NCBI RefSeq assembly: GCF_900184965.1
Contig: NZ_FXYA01000185.1
Span: forward strand, 1 to 64,000
Length of the DNA stretch: 64,000 bases
Direction of reading: 5' to 3'
Source: Akkermansia muciniphila
GTDB lineage: Bacteria > Verrucomicrobiota > Verrucomicrobiia > Verrucomicrobiales > Akkermansiaceae
Numbering within the stretch: position 1 is the stretch's first letter; every line of letters starts with the position of its first letter. The notes under the pieces were generated by a model. It did not search any database. It had not been told where the DNA came from and worked only from the letters and a program-made list of their open reading frames with translations. Below are positions 49,554-59,537 of this stretch, in pieces. Both the position numbers and the translations under genes were made by a program.

Positions 49554-50345
49554 TTATTTCTTTTTGTCTCCGAACGTTTCTTCCGGGTAGTGGACCTGCA
49601 TCAGCGTGAGTCCGTCCGGCGGGGCGCAAAACGGGCTTTTGTCATCCGGAAGCGGAGCGTTGATGAGGCGCGCCAGTTCGTCCAGCGTTATTTTTCCCCG
49701 TGCGGCTTCATGGGCGGCTCCCGTCATGAGGCGTACCATTTTGTAGAGGAAACCCGTTCCGGTAAAGGTGATGAAGACATGTTTCCCCGCCTGTTCCACT
49801 TGCGCCTGCATGATGGTCCGGCGGAAGTAATCCTCCGGAATAGGGCGCGGTTCATTGCCGCGCAGGGCGGCAAAGGCAGTGAAGTCATGCGTTCCCCGGA
49901 ACAGGTGTACCGCCTGTTCCAGAATATCCACGCTCCATGCCAGAGGGCGGTGCCAGGCCAGCCCGGCGTCAAAAGGGTTGAGGATGGGCGCGCGTGAAAT
50001 GCAGTAACGGTAGGTTTTTCCCGTGGCGCTGAACCGGGCATGGAAACCGGGCGGAACGTATTCCGCATGGGTAATCCGGATGGTTCGGGGTAGGCGCGTG
50101 TTGAGCGCGGCAGGCCATTTGTCCGCAGGAATGCGGTGGGTATCCGGAGCGTCTGCATGAAAAACCTGGCCCAGCGCATGAACGCCGGCGTCTGTCCTGC
50201 CGGAACCGTGGATGCGGCAGGAGGTCCCAAAGAGCCCGGAAAAGGCTCGTTCCAGCACGTCTTGGATGGTCCGGCCTCCCGGCTGGCTTTGCCAGCCCAG
50301 GTAGGGGCGTCCGTCATATGCGGCAATGAAACGAATGCGGGGCAT
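49554..50345 (-). CDS. truA: tRNA pseudouridine synthase A
   Basis: TruA forms pseudouridine at positions 38-40 of tRNA anticodon arms. The 263-residue product has PRIRFIAAYDGRPYLGWQSQ, SGRTDAGVHALGQVFHAD with the catalytic Asp, and YRYCISRAPILNPF. The length is normal and ATG 50345 matches the family. It is divergent from the phage-like operon. Confidence 0.96.
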   Translation of the reverse strand: MPRIRFIAAYDGRPYLGWQSQPGGRTIQDVLERAFSGLFGTSCRIHGSGRTDAGVHALGQVFHADAPDTHRIPADKWPAALNTRLPRTIRITHAEYVPPGFHARFSATGKTYRYCISRAPILNPFDAGLAWHRPLAWSVDILEQAVHLFRGTHDFTAFAALRGNEPRPIPEDYFRRTIMQAQVEQAGKHVFITFTGTGFLYKMVRLMTGAAHEAARGKITLDELARLINAPLPDDKSPFCAPPDGLTLMQVHYPEETFGDKKK

Positions 50346-50459
50346 AGGGATGATTGTGTTGGAACGGCCCGGTTTTGGCAAGTGGCAAGTGTCGGACGGT
50401 GACGGTTTGGAATGGATGCCGTCCGTTCCATCCGCTCTCTAGCTTGGAAGCCGTTAACG
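50346..50459. other. leader region of the phage-like operon
   Basis: A 114-bp divergent intergenic region between truA and the operon. It contains an imperfect inverted repeat, TGGAATGGAT and GTCCGTTCCA, around 50409-50432. No clear promoter pair is visible; it should contain both promoters. Confidence 0.35.
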
Positions 50460-51758
50460 ATGGCTATACGAATACAGGATTTTGGAATGTTGCATGTGGC
50501 TCCGGATTTGTCCGGCGTGATTCCGTTGAATGCTTTTGAAGCACAGGCCGCCAGTGTGCGGGACCTGGCGGCGGGCGTGATGGATGTGTCCGGAGCGGCT
50601 GGAGCCGCGCTGAAGGAAATGCAGGAGGTGAGGGATGCCGGCCAATGGGCGCAGGCCCGTGACGGGATGTACCGTTTTGAACAGGACGTGATGCGGGAGC
50701 TGGAAGCAGGAGGGGATTCGGAACACCTTCAGGAGAGATGGAAGAAGGCGCTGACAGAACGGCTTCCTTCCTATCTGCCTGCCCGGATGTCCGGCCCGGT
50801 GAGGGAGCGCGTGGCCCTGGCGAGGGAGAATCTGGAGACGGCCGGGAGCATTTATTTGCAGAAGATGTCCCGTCTGGGGCAGTTGGAGGAGGCGCGCCGG
50901 TTTTGGGCCGGGGGGGTGGAGTCTGCCGTGGAGCAGGGAGAGGCCGCTCTGGCCGAACGCAGGATTAGGGAGGGCAGCGGAATATTTGTAACGGGAGACG
51001 AGGCTTCCCGTATGGCGGAGGAAGCGCATTCCCGCGCAGCGCTGAATCGGGCGGTGGAGGAGGTTCGCCGTGATCCTGCTGCTGCGGTACGTCTCGTTTC
51101 CCGGCAGGAGAAGATGCCGGAAACTCCGGAGGAGAAGAAGGTGGCGGAAGAGGCTGCTGCGGCGTATGGGGAGTTGAAGCGGCGTTATGCGGATGCTCTG
51201 GCGGCCACTGTGTCCGGCGGCGGGTTGCTACGGGATGACGGATTGGCGAATGCGGAGAAGCATGGCTTGATCAGTTCCGAGCAGTTGAGGCGTTATACGG
51301 CTTCCCGCGACCGGAGGCAGACGGCGGAATTTTCCGGTATCAGCATTCCGGAGGACGATATGCTGTTGTGCCGCATGACCTCTCTGATTGATGAGGACTG
51401 CGGGGGGGAGGAAGATGCTGATGCTTTGATAGAAGTGGCTACTTCAGGTTTGCCTGCCGTTCAGGTGGAAAGGCTGCTCCGGCGGCGCGAGGTAATGTCA
51501 GGAATACCCCGCGAATTGCGTCGCGCTGTTTCCCGGCGCCTGTCCTCCATGTTCCGGAATGGCGCGTGGGGGCCGCCTGATGATGCCCGCGCGGCAGAGG
51601 AATGGAAGCGTGTCCAGACGGAATTGGCGGAGGCGGTGAAGAGGGCCCCGGAGCAGCCGGCGGCGGAGATGGAAAAGGTTTTTGAGAAAGAGAAACGCCT
51701 TCAGGATGCCGGCTGGGTGGGGTTTTCAGATATGAATAACGAAAAAGAAAGAAAGTGA
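50460..51758 (+). CDS. helical, possibly virion-associated protein (first gene of phage-like operon)
   Basis: I do not recognise a family. The 432-residue product from ATG 50460 is rich in Ala, Glu and Arg, with long charged helical segments (for example RFWAGGVESAVEQGEAALAE, ETPEEKKVAEEAAAAYGELK). It lacks a signal peptide and membrane segments. It ends in a stop whose last base shares the start of the next gene (TGATG). By position and composition it may be a scaffolding or inner-virion-type protein, which is inference only. An ATG 48 bases upstream is possible. Confidence 0.7.
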   Translation: MAIRIQDFGMLHVAPDLSGVIPLNAFEAQAASVRDLAAGVMDVSGAAGAALKEMQEVRDAGQWAQARDGMYRFEQDVMRELEAGGDSEHLQERWKKALTERLPSYLPARMSGPVRERVALARENLETAGSIYLQKMSRLGQLEEARRFWAGGVESAVEQGEAALAERRIREGSGIFVTGDEASRMAEEAHSRAALNRAVEEVRRDPAAAVRLVSRQEKMPETPEEKKVAEEAAAAYGELKRRYADALAATVSGGGLLRDDGLANAEKHGLISSEQLRRYTASRDRRQTAEFSGISIPEDDMLLCRMTSLIDEDCGGEEDADALIEVATSGLPAVQVERLLRRREVMSGIPRELRRAVSRRLSSMFRNGAWGPPDDARAAEEWKRVQTELAEAVKRAPEQPAAEMEKVFEKEKRLQDAGWVGFSDMNNEKERK

Positions 51759-54700
51759 TGATGGAGGATCATGGAGACAGGAAACAGGCAGAGACGCTCC
51801 CTATGGAAGGGAGTTCTCCGAAAGAGGTTCCCGAAATTGTGGGGGAAAGCCATATCCGGGAAGAGAACGCGGCGCTCTCCGAACCTTCCGGTACGGAAAA
51901 ATTCCCGGAACGGGAGTCGGAAAGGGAGGAATATTGGAATAGCGTATTGACGGGGGATGTGATGACCATTCCGCGGGAAGTGAGGATGAAAGCGGAGGCG
52001 ATGTATCCGGCTGGGACGGCGGACCGGGAAAGAATTGCCGCGTGCGTCATGCAGTCCTGGGTGGCGGATTCCGGGGCGATTCCCCGTGAACGCATCCGGA
52101 GGGACTGGAAGAATATCCGGGAACAGGTGGCGCGGCAGTATGGAGCGTCCGGAAAGTCTGATGACGAATTATTCGTGGCAGTTTCCATGCACAATCAGGT
52201 GCGCCTTTCCCGGAGGGAGACTTTGTTTGAATTGTACCAGGAAGAGTATGAACGTACTCTGTCCGGTGGCGGGACGGTTCCTGACGAACGGGGAAGGGAA
52301 GCCATTTCCTTATGGCCGGAGGAGTTGCAGGCTGTGGCGCGGCAATTGAAGGGCCGGGCCGTGTCCGATGCTCTGGATGACAGGAACCGTCTGGCGGATG
52401 CCGCCGGGATTATCCGCAAGGGATTGGAGGGGCTGGTAGCCAATGATGAGCCGGCGAAAGAAAGTTTTCCCGCTGTGCAGTTGAACCGGCAAGCCGTCGC
52501 CGGAGCTCCGGACGTCATACGCGCCGTGGATTGCCTGGCTTCCCTGGGGGATGGAGACCGTCAGAAGGTGTTCCGCATGATGGCTCCCTATTTGCGTTCC
52601 CGTCCCGCCTTCCGGGATGCCCTGGGGGGAGCGCTTAAACGCGGCGCCGCAGAGGTCGCGGAGAATGCGGCCCAGCTGGCTGTAAACGGCGCGGCATGGC
52701 TTCTGCCGGAGGGGCGGGAAAAGGAGGCGCTGGACAATTATTCCCGGAGTTTTGAAGAGCTGAGGAATTTTGCCAGGATGGAGTTTGCCCCGCTGCGCGG
52801 GGGAAAGGATTCTCCCTGGTTCCGGGAGATGCTGGTGGATATGGCCCAGCAGGGAGCGTCCACGGCTTTGGCGTTTTGCGGCCCTGCCGGGCTTGGCATG
52901 TTGATGGCGGGGGAGACGGGGCGCCATATGGCGGAGGCCCGGCGCATGAATCCGGACGGCGTGTTTGATGCTCAGATGGGGGGATCTGTCGTCTCCGGCG
53001 GGGTGAATACCTTGCTTTCCTTTGGAATGACGAAGCTGGGCCAGAAGATGCTGGGGCAGGGAATGCGGGCGTTCCGGGCCATGAGGCCCGCATCCGGGAA
53101 TTCCGGTGCGTTTTTTCCCGGAATGGGAGCCGTTGCGGCGGATGCCGTGAAGATGGAGGCGGAAAATAAATTGATGGAGTTGACGCCCATGGTCATTCAG
53201 GAAGGCGTGGGCGCTCTTACAAATAAGGCGTCCGGCGTGGACTGGGAGGGATGGCGGGCCAGACAGGCTTCCGCGGATGACCAGTTGAGGGAGGCCGTCA
53301 TGATGATGCCTTTCCTGCTGATAGGCGCGGGAAAGATTACCCTGAACCATTTCCGCCATGCCGGAATGCTGCTTGGAGACGGTTCCCCGCTGAAAGTATT
53401 CGGCATTCCGGATGAAACGGTTTCCCGAATTTTGCGGGAGAAGGATGTAAGCCGTGCCGGGGAATTGTTGCAGAAGTCCCTGCGGAATTCTCCGCTATGG
53501 GGGTCTTTATACATTTCCAGAAAGGCTTTGGAGTGGTCTCGCGCACTGGATGAAGCCGGAGAGCCTTTTTTGAAGACGGAGCAGGATGTAAGAGATTTTT
53601 TGGACTTGCCTTCTCCTGTACGTACAAGACCTTGGAAGATGCGGGATTTCCCCGAATCGGAAGCGGTGTTGAAAAAGCTTTTTCCTCATCCGGATTATGC
53701 TGCGGCCAGAACCAAGTGGCTGCTGCGTGCCGGCCTGCCCCGCGTGGGGGAAGCCGCTGCAGCGGACGGGCAGCCCGTTTATGGGGCGGAACCGGCGCCC
53801 GGCGTGAAAATGAAGCGAACGCAGGGCCGGCCTTCTGTGGAGGAGGCTCTTTCTTCCTGGTATGAGACGCTGGTCCGTATGGAAGAGGAAGATTTGGGGC
53901 TGGTCCGGAACAGGAATGGTCGGGAAATCCCATGGCGTTTAAGGAATGCGGAGGAATATGACATCCAAGCGGATGCTTTGCGCCGGGCGTTTGTGGAAGA
54001 GAGGCTGAAGAAGCGCGCTTATCGGCCGTACAGGATGTTGTTGCTGGCTTATCCGGAAGAGGCGGGAAGCCGTGCGGGTTTTTCCGGCAGGGACTGGGAC
54101 GCCGTTACGGCGGATATGGATCTCCGGACACGAGCCAATGTTTATGAAGGAGTGATGGAACGGGTGCACGGCGTCCCGCATGAGGAGGTGTCCGGCCATG
54201 TGGCTTTTCGTTTATGGAAGTCATTTTGCCGGGATGAAGGCGCTTGCGCCAGAGCGCGCCGGTGGCTTGAGGAAGGAAGTGCGTTGCTGAACGCTCCGGA
54301 TTTGTTGTCTGAATCTTTTAACCCGGACGGCCTGCCCTCCGCCCTGGCCAGGATGAGCGGCATGATGGCCGTCCTTGGAGGAGCGGAACGCCACGGGGTA
54401 AGTCCGGAGCTGCGGGAAATGAACCGCATGGTATGGGGAACCCAGGCGGATGTGAACAGCCTGTACCACGTGCTTCCCAACATGAAGGAATTTGACGTGC
54501 ATGTGGGGCGCGGCTACACGCCTGTGGAGAGTTACGGGCGGCTGCTGGCCCGGTTTCTGGAGGTGGCGCCGGAAAATGTGGCCCGTTATGCCTCTGTGCT
54601 GGATGCCCCGCGTCTGCATGCCGGGCCGGAACAGGTTTCTCCGCGTATTTATCCGGGGACGCGGAAAACGGTGGAGAATCTTCTCCAGTTGACTCCGCGC

Positions 54701-56941
54701 CTGTTCCAGTCGTCTCCCGGAGGGGAGGGGGCGGAAAGGCTGTGGAGAATAAAATATCCCAATGGCAGGTGGTCGGACTGGCATCCTTCTCGGGAGGCGG
54801 CGGAAGCGGACCTGATGGCCAATGTTTCCATGATGTTTTCTGCCGCCTGCTCAGCCAAGAGGGATTTGATCCGTAGCTGGAAATGGCATGCCCTCAACGG
54901 GCGGCCGGAGTGGGATACCAATTATCTGCGGCTGACAGCCGGGTTGGAAAATGTGCAGGGGGGGCGGCTTTCCTGCCTGTATGACAGCCTGACGGCCATG
55001 GCGGTGGCGGATATGCTGAAAGCCGGTTACGGCGTGCGTGGAGCAGTGGGGTCCGGGGATCGTCTGGAGGTGACGGGCCGGGGCCGTCTTGCCGCTGAAA
55101 CGCTGATGAGCCGTGACGCCCTGTTGGAGCGCATGAATATTCACGAAAAGTATGTAGGTTACGCGCAGAGGCTGGGCGTGGATGCGGACAATTTGCCCGT
55201 TTCCTCAGCCAAGGGGTTGGTAATGCACCGGCTGAGGCTTCACAATACGGCCAATCCCCTGGCTTTGATCGAAGACAAGGCGGAAGTCGTATGGGACCGG
55301 CTGATGCGCACGGATCAGCTTTCCCCGGAAGACGCTTGGGAAATGTTGAAACGTCTGGAACGTGTGCCGCGCCGCAGGAAGCTCTCTGGGGAAACGGAAT
55401 TGATTGAGGAGTTGTCCCAGCTGTCCAAGGAGTATTTTTTTGCCCATCTGGATCATGACGCCGTACCGGAAACGGTAGCCTCCTGGGCGCGCTACGGGGC
55501 AGCAAGCCCGGATAAGGCTATGGAGCCTCTGGAGGAGCTGGCGCGCCGCGCCGGGCTGCTGAAGAGAACGCTGAAGGAGGAACCGGAAACCGTTGAATTC
55601 ATGGGCATGCTCCGTGAGACGGTGGGGATGAATGACCGGATACGGGCTGAACGCGCCTGGGAGCCGGCCGGAGGGGAGGTCCGCCTCCCCATGGTGGAGA
55701 GGTACTCTCACAGCCTGATGTCCGGTCGGCTGCTGTCTACCGTCCCGGACCACGTGAAAGAGGGGCTGGCGCGTTCCCTGTCCGCTCTGGACGGATACGC
55801 GGGCGGTTCCGTACGCAGGATGGAGCGGCTGGCGGAAAACCGCATGAGGGAACTGTCCCGGGCGTTTCAGGAGTTCCCCCAGCTGAATTCCTGGCGGCCT
55901 GATCCGGAACATCCCGGCCTGTACCTGCATTTGGTGAAAAAGCCGTTCCGAGCCGGACTGGGGCCTCTGCGCGCGAAGGATGTTTCCCTGGAGGCTTTGG
56001 GAGAACATCTTCCGGAACCCATTCTGGAAGCCCCCCTGTATGTGGAAGAAGATTTTTCCGTCAGGCGTGGCGTTCCCGCCCCTGCCGCATGGCGCAGCCG
56101 TCCGGATGTGGTCCGGGCTGTGGAGACCCTGGATGCCGTGAGGCGGGATTTTGCAGACCGACCGGAAGCTACGGAGTCCGGCGTTAGCTGGAAGGGGAGG
56201 ATTTACCGGATTGATTCCGAAGCGGCTCCCGCGGGGGTGACGTCTGCCTGGAAACGGGAACTCCCGTTGGATGAGGCCATTTCCCTGATTGATGTTCTGG
56301 ACCGCAGGCAGGAGGAATTAAGAGGCGGCATGCTTCCCTTCCTTCCTGAGCCGGAGGAAGCGCGCGCGATGTATGCCAATTGCGTGATTTACCGTGACCC
56401 GGACGACCCGGGGCATACCGTACGCCTGATGCCGGGCATTCCGGAAAGTCCCGTACGGCAGGCGCGCGCGCCTTATGTGGTGCATGCATGGAACGGCGTT
56501 TATCTGGACAGCCGGGGAGCGCCTGCGGTGTCCGAACGGGATTCCTATATTCCGCTGGAGTGTTTTACGGGAGCCGGGGAGGAACCTTCCCTGAAAGATT
56601 CACGGATGAGCCGCACCCGGTTCCTGGACCGGATTTTGGAAACGCTGGGGGATGCAGATGTTCAGGAACGATGGTGGTGGGACAGAAGGCAGGCTGTGGG
56701 ATGCTTCATGGAGGATGTCGTCAGGCTGTATGAAGAACTGGGCGTGCGTGAAAATTATTTGAAGGGAAAGTTTGATTTGCTTGATCCCGTGATGGTGCAG
56801 ACGCTCCGGTTCGTTTCCCACGTGCTGAACGATCCACTGGCATACCGCCTTCCCCTGGACAAGGGGACGGAGGCCCAGAAGGGGATGACCAGGGAAGGGG
56901 CCTTGTTGAAAGAATTGATAGAGGAACATGGAACATTCTAA
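51758..56941 (+). CDS. 1,727-residue protein of unknown function in phage-like operon
   Basis: I do not recognise a family over its length. After a polar N-terminus there are charged helical segments, a hydrophobic, Gly/Ala-rich stretch around residues 360-470 (MAQQGASTALAFCGPAGLGM, GGVNTLLSFGMTKL) and then a long soluble part. Such size with a Gly/Ala-rich segment, next to a terminase, resembles the internal-virion or DNA-ejection proteins of podovirus-type phages. No lysozyme or peptidase motif is evident. The frame has no stop for 5.2 kb, and codon use looks normal for the host, so it is maintained. Start ATG 51758 follows the upstream stop directly; ATG 51761 is equally possible. Confidence 0.8.
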   Translation: MMEDHGDRKQAETLPMEGSSPKEVPEIVGESHIREENAALSEPSGTEKFPERESEREEYWNSVLTGDVMTIPREVRMKAEAMYPAGTADRERIAACVMQSWVADSGAIPRERIRRDWKNIREQVARQYGASGKSDDELFVAVSMHNQVRLSRRETLFELYQEEYERTLSGGGTVPDERGREAISLWPEELQAVARQLKGRAVSDALDDRNRLADAAGIIRKGLEGLVANDEPAKESFPAVQLNRQAVAGAPDVIRAVDCLASLGDGDRQKVFRMMAPYLRSRPAFRDALGGALKRGAAEVAENAAQLAVNGAAWLLPEGREKEALDNYSRSFEELRNFARMEFAPLRGGKDSPWFREMLVDMAQQGASTALAFCGPAGLGMLMAGETGRHMAEARRMNPDGVFDAQMGGSVVSGGVNTLLSFGMTKLGQKMLGQGMRAFRAMRPASGNSGAFFPGMGAVAADAVKMEAENKLMELTPMVIQEGVGALTNKASGVDWEGWRARQASADDQLREAVMMMPFLLIGAGKITLNHFRHAGMLLGDGSPLKVFGIPDETVSRILREKDVSRAGELLQKSLRNSPLWGSLYISRKALEWSRALDEAGEPFLKTEQDVRDFLDLPSPVRTRPWKMRDFPESEAVLKKLFPHPDYAAARTKWLLRAGLPRVGEAAAADGQPVYGAEPAPGVKMKRTQGRPSVEEALSSWYETLVRMEEEDLGLVRNRNGREIPWRLRNAEEYDIQADALRRAFVEERLKKRAYRPYRMLLLAYPEEAGSRAGFSGRDWDAVTADMDLRTRANVYEGVMERVHGVPHEEVSGHVAFRLWKSFCRDEGACARARRWLEEGSALLNAPDLLSESFNPDGLPSALARMSGMMAVLGGAERHGVSPELREMNRMVWGTQADVNSLYHVLPNMKEFDVHVGRGYTPVESYGRLLARFLEVAPENVARYASVLDAPRLHAGPEQVSPRIYPGTRKTVENLLQLTPRLFQSSPGGEGAERLWRIKYPNGRWSDWHPSREAAEADLMANVSMMFSAACSAKRDLIRSWKWHALNGRPEWDTNYLRLTAGLENVQGGRLSCLYDSLTAMAVADMLKAGYGVRGAVGSGDRLEVTGRGRLAAETLMSRDALLERMNIHEKYVGYAQRLGVDADNLPVSSAKGLVMHRLRLHNTANPLALIEDKAEVVWDRLMRTDQLSPEDAWEMLKRLERVPRRRKLSGETELIEELSQLSKEYFFAHLDHDAVPETVASWARYGAASPDKAMEPLEELARRAGLLKRTLKEEPETVEFMGMLRETVGMNDRIRAERAWEPAGGEVRLPMVERYSHSLMSGRLLSTVPDHVKEGLARSLSALDGYAGGSVRRMERLAENRMRELSRAFQEFPQLNSWRPDPEHPGLYLHLVKKPFRAGLGPLRAKDVSLEALGEHLPEPILEAPLYVEEDFSVRRGVPAPAAWRSRPDVVRAVETLDAVRRDFADRPEATESGVSWKGRIYRIDSEAAPAGVTSAWKRELPLDEAISLIDVLDRRQEELRGGMLPFLPEPEEARAMYANCVIYRDPDDPGHTVRLMPGIPESPVRQARAPYVVHAWNGVYLDSRGAPAVSERDSYIPLECFTGAGEEPSLKDSRMSRTRFLDRILETLGDADVQERWWWDRRQAVGCFMEDVVRLYEELGVRENYLKGKFDLLDPVMVQTLRFVSHVLNDPLAYRLPLDKGTEAQKGMTREGALLKELIEEHGTF

Positions 56942-58559
56942 TCATTTGACGGAATCATGGAGCCTGCCGTGGCAGTCCGTCCTGTCCAGCCAGCTTTGGA
57001 GGCTGGAACACCTGTACTGGATAGAGAACAAAGCCGGTCAGCTTCAGCGTTTTTCCCTGAACAGGGCGCAGCGGCGGCTGCATGAGCGGCTGTGGTACAG
57101 AAATGACATCCTGAAGGCGCGCCAGTTGGGCATTTCCACGTATGTGGCCATGCTGATGCTGGATATGAGCCTGTTCCGGTCCAATTTCCATTGCGGCATC
57201 ATTGACAAAAGCCTGCCGGACGCCCAGCAGAAACTGGCCAAGCTGCATTTTGCCTGGGACCATCTGGATTACGTGCCGCCCAACCCCTCTGCGATGGATG
57301 TGGCCCTGGCCCGGCTGGGAGAGAGAATCAAGAGCCTTTCCGGCGTGGAAAAAAAGGGGGAATGGCAGCCCTGTACGCTGGCGCGCAGCCGCCTGGCTTT
57401 CTCCAATGGGAGCGATGTGCGGGTGGGGACGAATCTGCGAGGGGGAACCATGCAGTTTCTCCATGTTTCCGAGCTGGCGTATGTTTCCGTGCATGCCCCG
57501 TGGAGGGCCAGGGAAATCCGTACGGGAGCAATCAATACAGTTCCTCCCGGCGGTTTTATTCTGAAGGAAAGCACTCATGAAGGCGGACGGTACGGAGTGA
57601 ATTACGAATTGACGCGCCAGGCTATGGAAAACATGGGTAAAAGCGAGCTTTCCCCCTTGGATTTCAGATTCTTTTTTTTCAGCTGGTTTGACCAGGACGA
57701 GTACACCTTGCCGGGGCGCGGCAGATGGAGCAGGGAATTGGACGAGTATTTCCTTTCCCTGGAACGGGAGACCGGAGTGGTTCTGGATGCGGGGCAGAAG
57801 AGATGGTATGCCCGGATGGCCCGGGTGATGGGCTCCTCCATGAAGCAGGAGTATCCGGGAACGCCGCAGGAGGCTTTTGCTACAGGGGAAGAAGGCAGTA
57901 TTTACGGCAGCCGTATCATGGCCCTGCGGGAACGGGGGCGGGTGGGGGTGGAGTTTGAGGCTGATCCGGACGCTCCCACTTTTACGGCATGGGATCTGGG
58001 GCTGAGTGACCATACGGCCATTTGGCTTGTGCAGATCATGGGAGACAGTTTCCACTGGCTGGACCATTATGCCGCTAGCCAGCAGCCCCTGGCCCATTAT
58101 GTTGAAAGAATGAAGGAATGGGAAAAAAATTATGGTGTTGCGGTAACGTTCCATCTTTTGCCCCATGACGCTGCACGGAGGGATGCCCACGGCATTTCCT
58201 ACGTGGAGAATATGGGAAGGCTGGGATTGGTGAATGTGCGCGTCGTCCCCAGAACCACGGATGTCTGGCGCGGCATTAATACGCTGAGGGAATTGCTGGA
58301 GCGCAGTTTTTTCCATGCCCGCACCCAGGAAAAGGCGCGAGGCATTTGCGGGGAAGAAGAGCCCGGAGGTGTAGAGCATCTGGAGTTGTACAGGTCCAGG
58401 CCTCCCGGCGTAGGCGGGGCCATTGCGGAAAGTCCCGTGCATGACGGGCATTCCCACACGGCGGATGCCGCGCGTACTTTTGCGGAGGCGTGGTCTCATG
58501 GCCTGCTCCATGGAACCGGGAATGGCCGGGAGCGCGGCAGGCGCGCCCGGATGTGGTGA
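56928..58559 (+). CDS. phage terminase large subunit
   Basis: Terminase large subunits pump DNA into phage capsids and cut it. The 543-residue product has the motor motifs ILKARQLGIST (Walker A-type, about 61-71) and MQFLHVSELAY with the Walker B Glu at about 182. The coupling motif ILKESTHEGG follows, then the RNase H-like nuclease with FTAWDLGLSDHTA (Asp 356), HLLPHDAARRD (Asp 414) and SHTADAARTF (Asp 513). All expected catalytic residues are present, so the protein looks functional. It overlaps the giant gene by 14 bp, with AGAGGAAC as a good Shine-Dalgarno-like site. No portal, capsid or protease follows; chromosomal genes resume within 120 bp. Confidence 0.93.
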   Translation: MEHSNHLTESWSLPWQSVLSSQLWRLEHLYWIENKAGQLQRFSLNRAQRRLHERLWYRNDILKARQLGISTYVAMLMLDMSLFRSNFHCGIIDKSLPDAQQKLAKLHFAWDHLDYVPPNPSAMDVALARLGERIKSLSGVEKKGEWQPCTLARSRLAFSNGSDVRVGTNLRGGTMQFLHVSELAYVSVHAPWRAREIRTGAINTVPPGGFILKESTHEGGRYGVNYELTRQAMENMGKSELSPLDFRFFFFSWFDQDEYTLPGRGRWSRELDEYFLSLERETGVVLDAGQKRWYARMARVMGSSMKQEYPGTPQEAFATGEEGSIYGSRIMALRERGRVGVEFEADPDAPTFTAWDLGLSDHTAIWLVQIMGDSFHWLDHYAASQQPLAHYVERMKEWEKNYGVAVTFHLLPHDAARRDAHGISYVENMGRLGLVNVRVVPRTTDVWRGINTLRELLERSFFHARTQEKARGICGEEEPGGVEHLELYRSRPPGVGGAIAESPVHDGHSHTADAARTFAEAWSHGLLHGTGNGRERGRRARMW

Positions 58560-58629: not shown

Positions 58630-58673
58630 TTTCCGGCCTTCAGCTGTCTAACGCAGTGATGCGATTTATTGAG

Positions 58674-59537
58674 ATGAAATTATCCCTTTTCCATCCGTTG
58701 GTTTCCTGCCTGTGCGTTCCGTTTTTGATTTCGTCCTGCGATACTACGGGAAGGGCCCCTTCCCCTGTTCCATCTTCCCATATGCCGGTAGAAGAAATGA
58801 CGGGATATTTTGAGGAAACGGGGACTATTCCGGGGCACCTGCTCAAGTGGGAAGATGATCCGTCGCTGCCCGGAAAGCTGCTGGTCGTAGTGGATAAGAA
58901 AAAGCAGATGATGTATATCTACCGGGGGACGCACCGCATTGCGTATGCTCCCATCAGTTCCGGGAGAAGTTCCGGCATGACGCCCTCCGGCTACTTCCTC
59001 ATCTCTTCCAAGGATGAGGATCATCATTCTTATTACGGCGCGTTTATTAATGCTGACGGAGAATTGCGGGACGGGGATATACGAAGGGATTCCCCCCGCC
59101 CCGGCGAGAGGTTTGAACCTGCCAAGATGCCCTATTTCATGAGAGTGAACGGGGCCGTAGGAATTCATGAAGGGTACTTGCCCGGTCATCCGTCCTCCCA
59201 TGGATGTATCCGTGTCCCCCACCTGATCGCGAAAAATCTTTTTGAAATAGCTCCCGTAGGAACCCGTGTGGTTGTCAGGGATGGAAACTGGAACATTCAC
59301 GAGCTTCAAAAAAAGCCGTCCGGAATATTCAGGACGGTGCACAAGTCTTCCGCTCCGGTGGCTGGCGCCAATTCGGCTTCCTCCGGAAAGAAGGAACTTG
59401 TAAAATCGGAAATGTCCGTAAAAAAGGACGCCGCCGCCATGCCGTCTGTGGGAAAACAGAAAAACAGGCAACTGCCTTTTTCTGAGGCGGACGCTGTGAA
59501 CTCTTCTTCATCCAATGGCCTCGAAGGACTGGAATAA
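58674..59537 (+). CDS. L,D-transpeptidase lipoprotein (YkuD domain)
   Basis: The 287-residue product from ATG 58674 has a lipoprotein-type signal (LVSCLCVPFLISSC with the cysteine as lipidation site). The YkuD domain has KLLVVVDKKKQMMYIYRGTH, GMTPSGYFLISSKD and the catalytic HPSSHGCIRVP with the active-site Cys. It should form L,D cross-links in peptidoglycan or attach proteins to it. A low-complexity Ser/Lys-rich tail of about 70 residues is unusual. It overlaps the following acetyltransferase by 23 bp. A GTG at 58656 or ATG at 58659 would add a few residues. Confidence 0.9.
   Translation: MKLSLFHPLVSCLCVPFLISSCDTTGRAPSPVPSSHMPVEEMTGYFEETGTIPGHLLKWEDDPSLPGKLLVVVDKKKQMMYIYRGTHRIAYAPISSGRSSGMTPSGYFLISSKDEDHHSYYGAFINADGELRDGDIRRDSPRPGERFEPAKMPYFMRVNGAVGIHEGYLPGHPSSHGCIRVPHLIAKNLFEIAPVGTRVVVRDGNWNIHELQKKPSGIFRTVHKSSAPVAGANSASSGKKELVKSEMSVKKDAAAMPSVGKQKNRQLPFSEADAVNSSSSNGLEGLE

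Follow-up and report, generated by a model that had tools for sequence, protein, structure and literature searches.

The 64,000-nt stretch of Akkermansia muciniphila DNA analysed here (assembly GCF_900184965.1, contig NZ_FXYA01000185.1, positions 1-64,000; hereafter the window) holds an operon of three overlapping genes, g1, g2 and g3, the last of which encodes the large subunit of a phage-type terminase (TerL). We propose that this operon is one locus, A, of a T7-like (podovirus-type) particle that has been domesticated and dispersed and is most likely a gene transfer agent (GTA). The other genes of the particle lie at four further loci, B to E. As a beneficial gut bacterium, A. muciniphila has drawn wide study, and to our knowledge little is known of gene movement in it.

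Particle genes at five loci

In genome G119, a single contig of 2,664,102 bases, A lies at 463-470 kb, D at 1,787 kb, E at 1,893 kb, C at 2,208 kb and B at 2,504 kb. The known genes of the set total about 15 kb and are spread over some 2 Mb of this genome; therefore, no single fragment could hold the set. In the genome that contains the window (G000), the five loci fall on five contigs. All ten neighbours tested around B, C and D in G119 belong to host families. Around locus A (L057, L060, L062, L066 and L067), seven of ten neighbours did so, namely two aldose epimerases, a sulfate permease, a formate-tetrahydrofolate ligase, a tRNA synthetase, a histidine phosphatase and a YhcG nuclease, and the other three had no Pfam match. 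An earlier reading of the window from its letters (the sequence-only reading) had described a terminase without capsid or portal. This stands locally, as the 8 kb of locus A hold no portal, capsid, small terminase or integrase gene, but not genome-wide, as both capsid and portal genes occur at other loci of the same genomes.

The portal family phrog_332 occurs in 63 of 76 Akkermansia genomes and in none of 14 control genomes, and in the operon-bearing genomes inspected it does not adjoin a terminase. The gp12-like tail family (phrog_376) and the major capsid family (phrog_3437) were each found in 62 of the 76 genomes. For the gp14-like internal protein, the phrog_418 family model matched 47 genomes and the G147 protein, used as query, 58. 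Following 20 portals into locus B, we found the protease-like gene after the portal every time, usually with a small frame between them, and the gp11-like gene in 16 cases. The gp14-like gene of locus E has its own position in G119, G038, G000, G113, G028, G047 and G063. Two small conserved frames of ~98 and ~86 residues follow gp11 in locus B (L207:12470-13023 and equivalents; 14 and 11 of the 20 stretches, respectively). The first has weak matches to transcription regulators (E 2e-4), and both are candidates for a regulator or for particle parts.

Loci A-D are present or absent together. All four of A-D were found in 51 of the 76 genomes, three in nine, one or two in none, and none of them in 16; the nine three-locus genomes are drafts, 71-95% complete. 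The 67 all-or-none genomes compare with at most 36 in 20,000 shuffles, which ignore kinship. Similarly, of the 60 genomes with three or four loci, 57 have the gp14-like gene, as does one of the other 16, G389, where it stands among prophage genes. Members of the set were told from prophage copies by their own profiles for portal and capsid and by the genus searches for gp12 and g2, with thresholds set after the scores had been seen. Portals of the set scored at least 770 bits, against 485 or less for the rest, and gp12 at least 354 bits, against 330 for G389, with the gp12 gene of G169, split over two contigs, counted as present. For the capsid the gap was thin (at least 529 bits against up to 523 for prophage-type copies), and the three genomes with such copies also hold a higher-scoring capsid. 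On a tree of the host gene pnp (22 genomes, six of them without the set), supported branches force three changes; either all three are losses, or one is a gain and two are losses. Genome G132 has none of B, C and D and retains only a 185-codon terminase frame (L268:16768-17322, contig C33), likely a remnant of a lost locus A.

The operon itself is widespread. In the full search of the genus, g2 was found in 59 of 76 Akkermansia genomes. Across 386 genomes of the order, a g2 profile matched 55, and 52 of these matches came from the 69 genomes that belong to the same genus. TerL relatives occurred in 43 of 195 Akkermansiaceae genomes, a count that takes in prophage terminases. The order g1-g2-TerL on one strand was kept in all 20 orthologous loci fetched, no prophage surrounds the trio, and the frames are open in most copies, with one in-frame stop in a few draft copies. 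The sequence-only reading had named conserved synteny in genomes lacking the rest of the phage as a sign of domestication and presence in this strain only as a sign of an ordinary remnant; the trio is conserved in most genomes of the genus, which carry the other particle genes at separate loci. Among distant orthologues, g1 and g2 evolve fast (~20-30% identity) and TerL slowly (57-68%). The site between truA and an L,D-transpeptidase gene is shared by 5 of the 20 loci (L051-L055), and in G147 (L056) three genes further downstream of that site are held in common. Elsewhere the trio's neighbours differ and its sites vary between lineages; the sites of B, C and D, like that of A, are conserved within the muciniphila lineage.

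To quantify selection, we compared eight genes at four loci between the window's genome and three species by the Nei-Gojobori method. At locus A, the ratio of nonsynonymous to synonymous substitution rates (dN/dS) was 0.10-0.18 for g1, 0.15-0.17 for g2 and 0.04-0.06 for TerL. At locus B it was 0.04-0.07 for the portal, 0.10-0.13 for the protease-like gene and 0.07-0.08 for gp11, and at loci C and D 0.09-0.12 for gp12 and 0.02-0.05 for the capsid. Neighbouring host genes gave 0.05-0.21, and dS of the set genes was of the same order in each comparison. The earlier view that the open frames reflect selection, for which a dN/dS below 1 was the proposed check, is thus borne out for the trio in all three species comparisons. 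At the protein level, the distances for TerL, g2, portal, gp12 and capsid are correlated among themselves (r 0.79-0.96 in 16 genomes) and with those of pnp (r 0.48-0.83), values reached in 0 of 5000 permutations in either case. The 11 distant genomes alone gave lower values, 0.52-0.82 among loci and 0.31-0.81 against pnp. The TerL and pnp trees show the same main split. Loci A-D thus co-diverge among themselves and with the single host gene compared, which indicates mostly vertical inheritance.

The set is not fully dispersed everywhere: g1, g2, TerL and gp12 are contiguous in G358, the capsid gene lies ~7 kb from TerL in G181, and the gp14-like gene ~1.4 kb from TerL in G147. A capsid or portal next door in related genomes had been put forward as the mark of a prophage remnant, and these three linkages come part of the way to that. 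We read this partial linkage as a trace of the shared origin of the dispersed set and not of decay, because of the purifying selection and the joint presence of the loci. In G181, locus A and the capsid gene have a gene for a YhcG-type PDDEXK nuclease (L066:16232-17368) between them.

The operon and its proteins

The three same-strand, overlapping genes between truA and the L,D-transpeptidase gene have the coordinates and overlaps first described for them (Table 1). The length of 1,727 residues given then for the middle protein is correct for the ATG inside TGATG at 51758. A second in-frame ATG lies upstream of g1 at 50412, and the start of g3 overlaps the end of g2 by 14 bp. Rfam and tRNA scans of the window returned nothing at threshold. 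PADLOC matched none of the three proteins, and a defence-system identity for the trio was rejected on this ground.

Table 1. Genes of the operon, its host neighbours in the window, and the other loci of the set
Feature	Locus	Position in window	Strand	Description
g1	A	50460..51758	+	432 residues; ATG at 50460, stop ends at 51758
g2	A	51755..56941	+	1,728 residues from GTG at 51755; stop ends at 56941
g3 (TerL)	A	56928..58559	+	Terminase large subunit, 543 residues
truA		49554..50381	-	Host gene, divergent from g1; named in the sequence-only reading; orthologue in place at L051-L055
L,D-transpeptidase		58656..59537	+	Host gene; named in the sequence-only reading; in place at L051-L055
Portal, protease-like gene, gp11-like tail gene	B			phrog_332 (portal); phrog_394 (gp11-like), on the opposite strand
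gp12-like tail gene	C			phrog_376; single gene in 20 loci fetched
Major capsid gene	D			phrog_3437; single gene in 19 loci fetched (L259 of the capsid batch, a different locus, is not counted)
gp14-like internal protein gene	E			phrog_418

The g3 product is a terminase large subunit. Its full length of 543 residues, a PHROGs match to phrog_2 (TerL, E 8e-18) and invariant putative active-site residues agree with the earlier description of a complete large subunit. Two families listed as of unknown function cover its N-terminal part (phrog_26724, E 2e-40) and its C-terminal part (phrog_2472, E 6e-40), and since they match these two parts they are probably terminase halves. Across 20 operon and four prophage sequences, residues R65-Q66-G68-S70-T71, E182, D356, D414 and D513 do not vary; we take them to form the ATPase and RNase H active sites. 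The Pfam model Terminase_6C reached E 0.026, under its cut-off, and a search of PDB sequences gave a weak match to T4 gp17 (E 0.02-0.04). The nearest TerLs in IMG/VR, among the matches listed, are ~31-37% identical, and identity to the Akkermansia prophage TerLs found is at most about 52%. In a tree of 39 terminases, 16 operon copies form one clade (support 99/98) with branches shorter than those of the prophage copies, and 11 Akkermansia prophage terminases fall outside it.

Neither g1 nor g2 matched a named family in Pfam, PHROGs or NCBIfam, the sole sub-threshold Pfam row for g1 being DUF2379 (E 0.078). As the sequence-only reading had held, g1 is helical: the predicted structure is all-helical, with a mean predicted local distance difference test score (pLDDT) of 80.7. 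The g1 profile matches a 710-residue protein of a podovirus prophage on contig C39 of the same genome (E 2e-8) and a 750-residue protein that adjoins a g2-like protein in G135 (E 1e-10). In VIA-align, the top seven rows for the g1 model were all phage core or ejectosome proteins (T7, cyanophage A4, DEV and PhiM1) at Z 5.9-8.2, moderate scores in a range where, below 13, Z is not decisive for helical proteins; the best-superposed T7 row had a root-mean-square deviation of 6.3 over 207 residues. Against viral models, all seven matches of the g1 model at E <= 0.001 were proteins of uncultured tailed phages. A Foldseek search of the PDB gave no match at E 0.001, and the g1 profile found nothing among PDB sequences. 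By predicted fold and with moderate scores, g1 thus resembles T7 gp15-type internal core or ejection proteins.

For g2 the tie is indirect. Its profile matches the N-terminal part of integrated-element proteins of 2,324 and 2,543 residues in two other genera (E 5e-36 and 9e-39), and hhalign aligned g2 to the same part (E 1e-22). The C-terminal part of these proteins in turn matches giant prophage proteins (hhalign E 1e-43). Since g2 has no direct match to the giants, its candidate role as a gp16-type internal or ejection protein rests on position and indirect homology. The earlier guess of T7-like internal virion proteins is accordingly upheld for g1, through profile matches and predicted fold, and for g2 only along this indirect route. 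The g2 protein has glycine-rich hydrophobic segments at about residues 368-386 and 515-533. It had no match among annotated phages, its profile gave 39 pattern candidates in IMG/VR of which none was confirmed, and the only row among PDB sequences was a chance one (E 1.1). A model of residues 540-1728 (pLDDT 71.5) had no match among viral models at E 0.001 and no clear fold in the PDB, where the best hit, a transporter at Z 6.2, was taken as chance.

Related podovirus prophages occur in genomes of the same genus. Prophages on contigs C116, C3 and C39 of the window's genome carry terminases paralogous to g3 (45%, 44% and 38% identity), and the C39 prophage runs from small terminase through TerL, portal, a protease-like protein, a phrog_418 protein, the 710-residue protein and a 2,929-residue protein to the capsid. 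The podovirus-type prophages noted (C116, C3 and C39 of G000; L031, L032, L033, L075 and L079) carry paralogous genes for terminase, portal, gp12-like protein and capsid. In score, the capsid of C116 comes close to the dispersed one (496 against about 591 bits). Giant phage proteins of 2,500-3,200 residues (L079:8094-16880, L192:12029-19657) are read as polyvalent proteins of podovirus prophages, on a PBECR3 nuclease-like match (E 3e-9) or an ART-PolyVal match below threshold. Two elements in other genera have g1-like genes with very long g2-like neighbours, in G125 (L192/L193, C9) beside replication genes and an integrase, and in G135 (L194, C12) beside replication genes and a small-terminase-like gene. 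No g3-family terminase was found in either stretch, and the two are possibly satellites or incomplete prophages. The G125 element adjoins dnaK-like, groES and groEL genes.

Proposed gene transfer and alternative readings

We compared the set with the formal GTA criteria as given in PMC9662315. Its particle proteins are derived from caudoviricetes (TerL, portal, protease-like protein, gp11, gp12, capsid and gp14-like protein), and its genes are endogenised across multiple loci, five in G119 and on five contigs in G000, with host flanks at A-D. The set fits the criteria that can be checked from sequence because it retains a full head, portal, tail and core and a TerL with its putative active-site residues, with no integrase or replication genes at the loci inspected and with its genes too widely spaced for any one fragment to carry them all. 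A further criterion, mostly vertical inheritance, agrees with the conserved sites in the muciniphila lineage and the co-divergence with pnp, while packaging of mostly random host DNA and its delivery to other cells are criteria for experiment. In the proposed mechanism, TerL (A) would cut chromosomal DNA and pump it through the portal (B) into a head of capsid protein (D) that the protease-like protein (B) would mature, and the short tail would consist of gp11 (B) and gp12 (C). The internal core of g1, g2 (A) and the gp14-like protein (E) would leave the particle and open a channel across the envelope of another Akkermansia cell, the recipient, in which fragments of the donor chromosome could recombine.

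Among the alternatives, a PBSX-like particle would package host DNA and kill related cells without gene transfer. PBSX of Bacillus subtilis is likewise a host-encoded set for a phage-like particle; its particles hold random 13-kb pieces of host DNA and behave as a bacteriocin does (PMC7667829). Such a particle would need the same gene content as found here, but the set keeps its internal core genes g1, g2 and gp14-like, and g1 and g2 are under selection in all comparisons made; we consider this reading unlikely. In T7, the internal core genes serve DNA ejection. We regard the kept g1 and g2 as consistent with DNA delivery and go no further. A domesticated particle could also do some other job, for instance supply decoy capsid, portal or terminase proteins that interfere with incoming phages; the related podovirus prophages in same-genus genomes, with paralogs of these proteins, would favour this. 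Yet interference needs neither a full head, tail and core nor a TerL with every putative active-site residue in place, and the lack of PADLOC matches also speaks against it; we judge it quite improbable.

Two more readings were weighed. As a helper-dependent mobile element or phage satellite, the trio would hijack the particles of co-resident podoviruses. The gene combinations of the G125 and G135 elements and the different sites of the trio in different lineages would suit this, but no integrase or replication gene stands beside the Akkermansia trio at the loci inspected, and its site is kept in the muciniphila lineage. Moreover, particle genes at loci B-E share the trio's distribution, which sets it apart from a satellite, and in G119 the only portal, gp12 and capsid matches are single ones of the dispersed type, leaving this reading very little weight. 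The other is a decaying prophage remnant, a reading suggested by phage-derived genes at a locus that has no integrase, repressor or lysis gene. We give it next to no credence in view of dN/dS values of 0.02-0.18, mostly open frames, presence in 59 of 76 genomes and the all-or-none distribution. Nor does the layout match an intact or recently decayed prophage, as single genes or trios lie among host genes; the lack of an integrase is judged from the loci inspected and no genome-wide search was made. The sequence-only reading had weighed a decayed prophage tip against a repurposed packaging module and leaned weakly to the latter. The tip does not survive these data. The module does, being selected, conserved and free of surrounding prophage, except that it has not lost its capsid and portal.

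Several observations weigh against the GTA proposal. The particle, its host-DNA content and its delivery are inferred, the set being known here from its genes. The search for a small terminase of the prophage type gave no member of the set: its family phrog_51 was found in 26 of 76 genomes, with none in G119, G028 or G147, and its three matches in G000 all lie on prophage contigs. Neither a tail fibre nor a lysis gene was placed in the set (no systematic search was made), no regulator was found for it, and 12 upstream stretches of loci A-D from three genomes showed by eye no convincing shared motif. The host flanks are established for A-D and do not take in E, where some of the weaker gp14-like matches may be prophage copies. 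Part of the joint distribution is kinship, since the genomes without the set may mostly belong to a single clade, and only one gene underlies the host tree. Finally, the missing direct match between g2 and the giant prophage proteins leaves its link to ejection proteins indirect.

On balance we favour the view that Akkermansia has an undescribed T7-like GTA whose genes are scattered to at least five loci, several of them single genes, inherited as cellular genes, and which would move chromosomal DNA between Akkermansia cells in the gut; lineages that lost it would have lost all its scattered parts. If so, no GTA known to us would be more finely dispersed, and it would be the first that we found for Verrucomicrobiota. 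A selected, host-encoded DNA shuttle across the genus would be a concrete, testable route of gene flow and would explain host DNA in gut virus-like particles, usually dismissed as contamination. It would also show how far a phage can be dismantled and yet be retained as a functioning organ of the cell. Lone "phage" genes among host genes may be parts of one unlinked machine, and prophage callers that depend on clusters would miss them. In mouse-gut particles, contigs that show transduction patterns were enriched 3.5-fold for Verrucomicrobia (PMC7667829), which is no more than suggestive of random host-DNA packaging. A. muciniphila YL44 has four predicted and three induced prophages (PMC10197239), a confounder in particle experiments of any kind. 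Literature titles and the opening lines of abstracts, a scope outside which bioRxiv preprints and most subscription papers lie, yielded no Akkermansia GTA and only incidental co-mention.

Comparison with known systems

T7-like and Bcep22-like podoviruses, including the Akkermansia prophages L031-L033 and L079, have the same TerL, portal, gp11, gp12, capsid, gp14-like and gp15-like families. They differ in that these genes lie together in a single genome, for some of the phages alongside integrase or replication genes, whereas the genes of the operon's set are scattered and its TerLs form a clade of their own. RcGTA, the type I alphaproteobacterial agent, differs in its main head-tail cluster and siphovirus-like tail. 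By description, it is alike in being phage-derived, in its several loci (five in R. capsulatus) and in its vertical inheritance (PMC9662315).

Another system close by description is FpGTA of Faecalibacterium prausnitzii, likewise a GTA-like element of a gut bacterium, near-ubiquitous in its genus and of podovirus-like morphology. Its authors call it the first such element from the gut, and also the first of that morphology (PMC12946183). The main text of that paper does not mention Akkermansia or Verrucomicrobia. Particles and packaged DNA were observed for FpGTA, whereas the Akkermansia set is represented by genes alone. Both occupy more than one locus, FpGTA having two operons about 125 kb apart. 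However, one FpGTA operon of 10.5 kb holds small terminase, TerL, portal, scaffold and capsid together (PMC12946183), whereas the Akkermansia set, in a Gram-negative phylum, is divided among five loci, three of them single genes.

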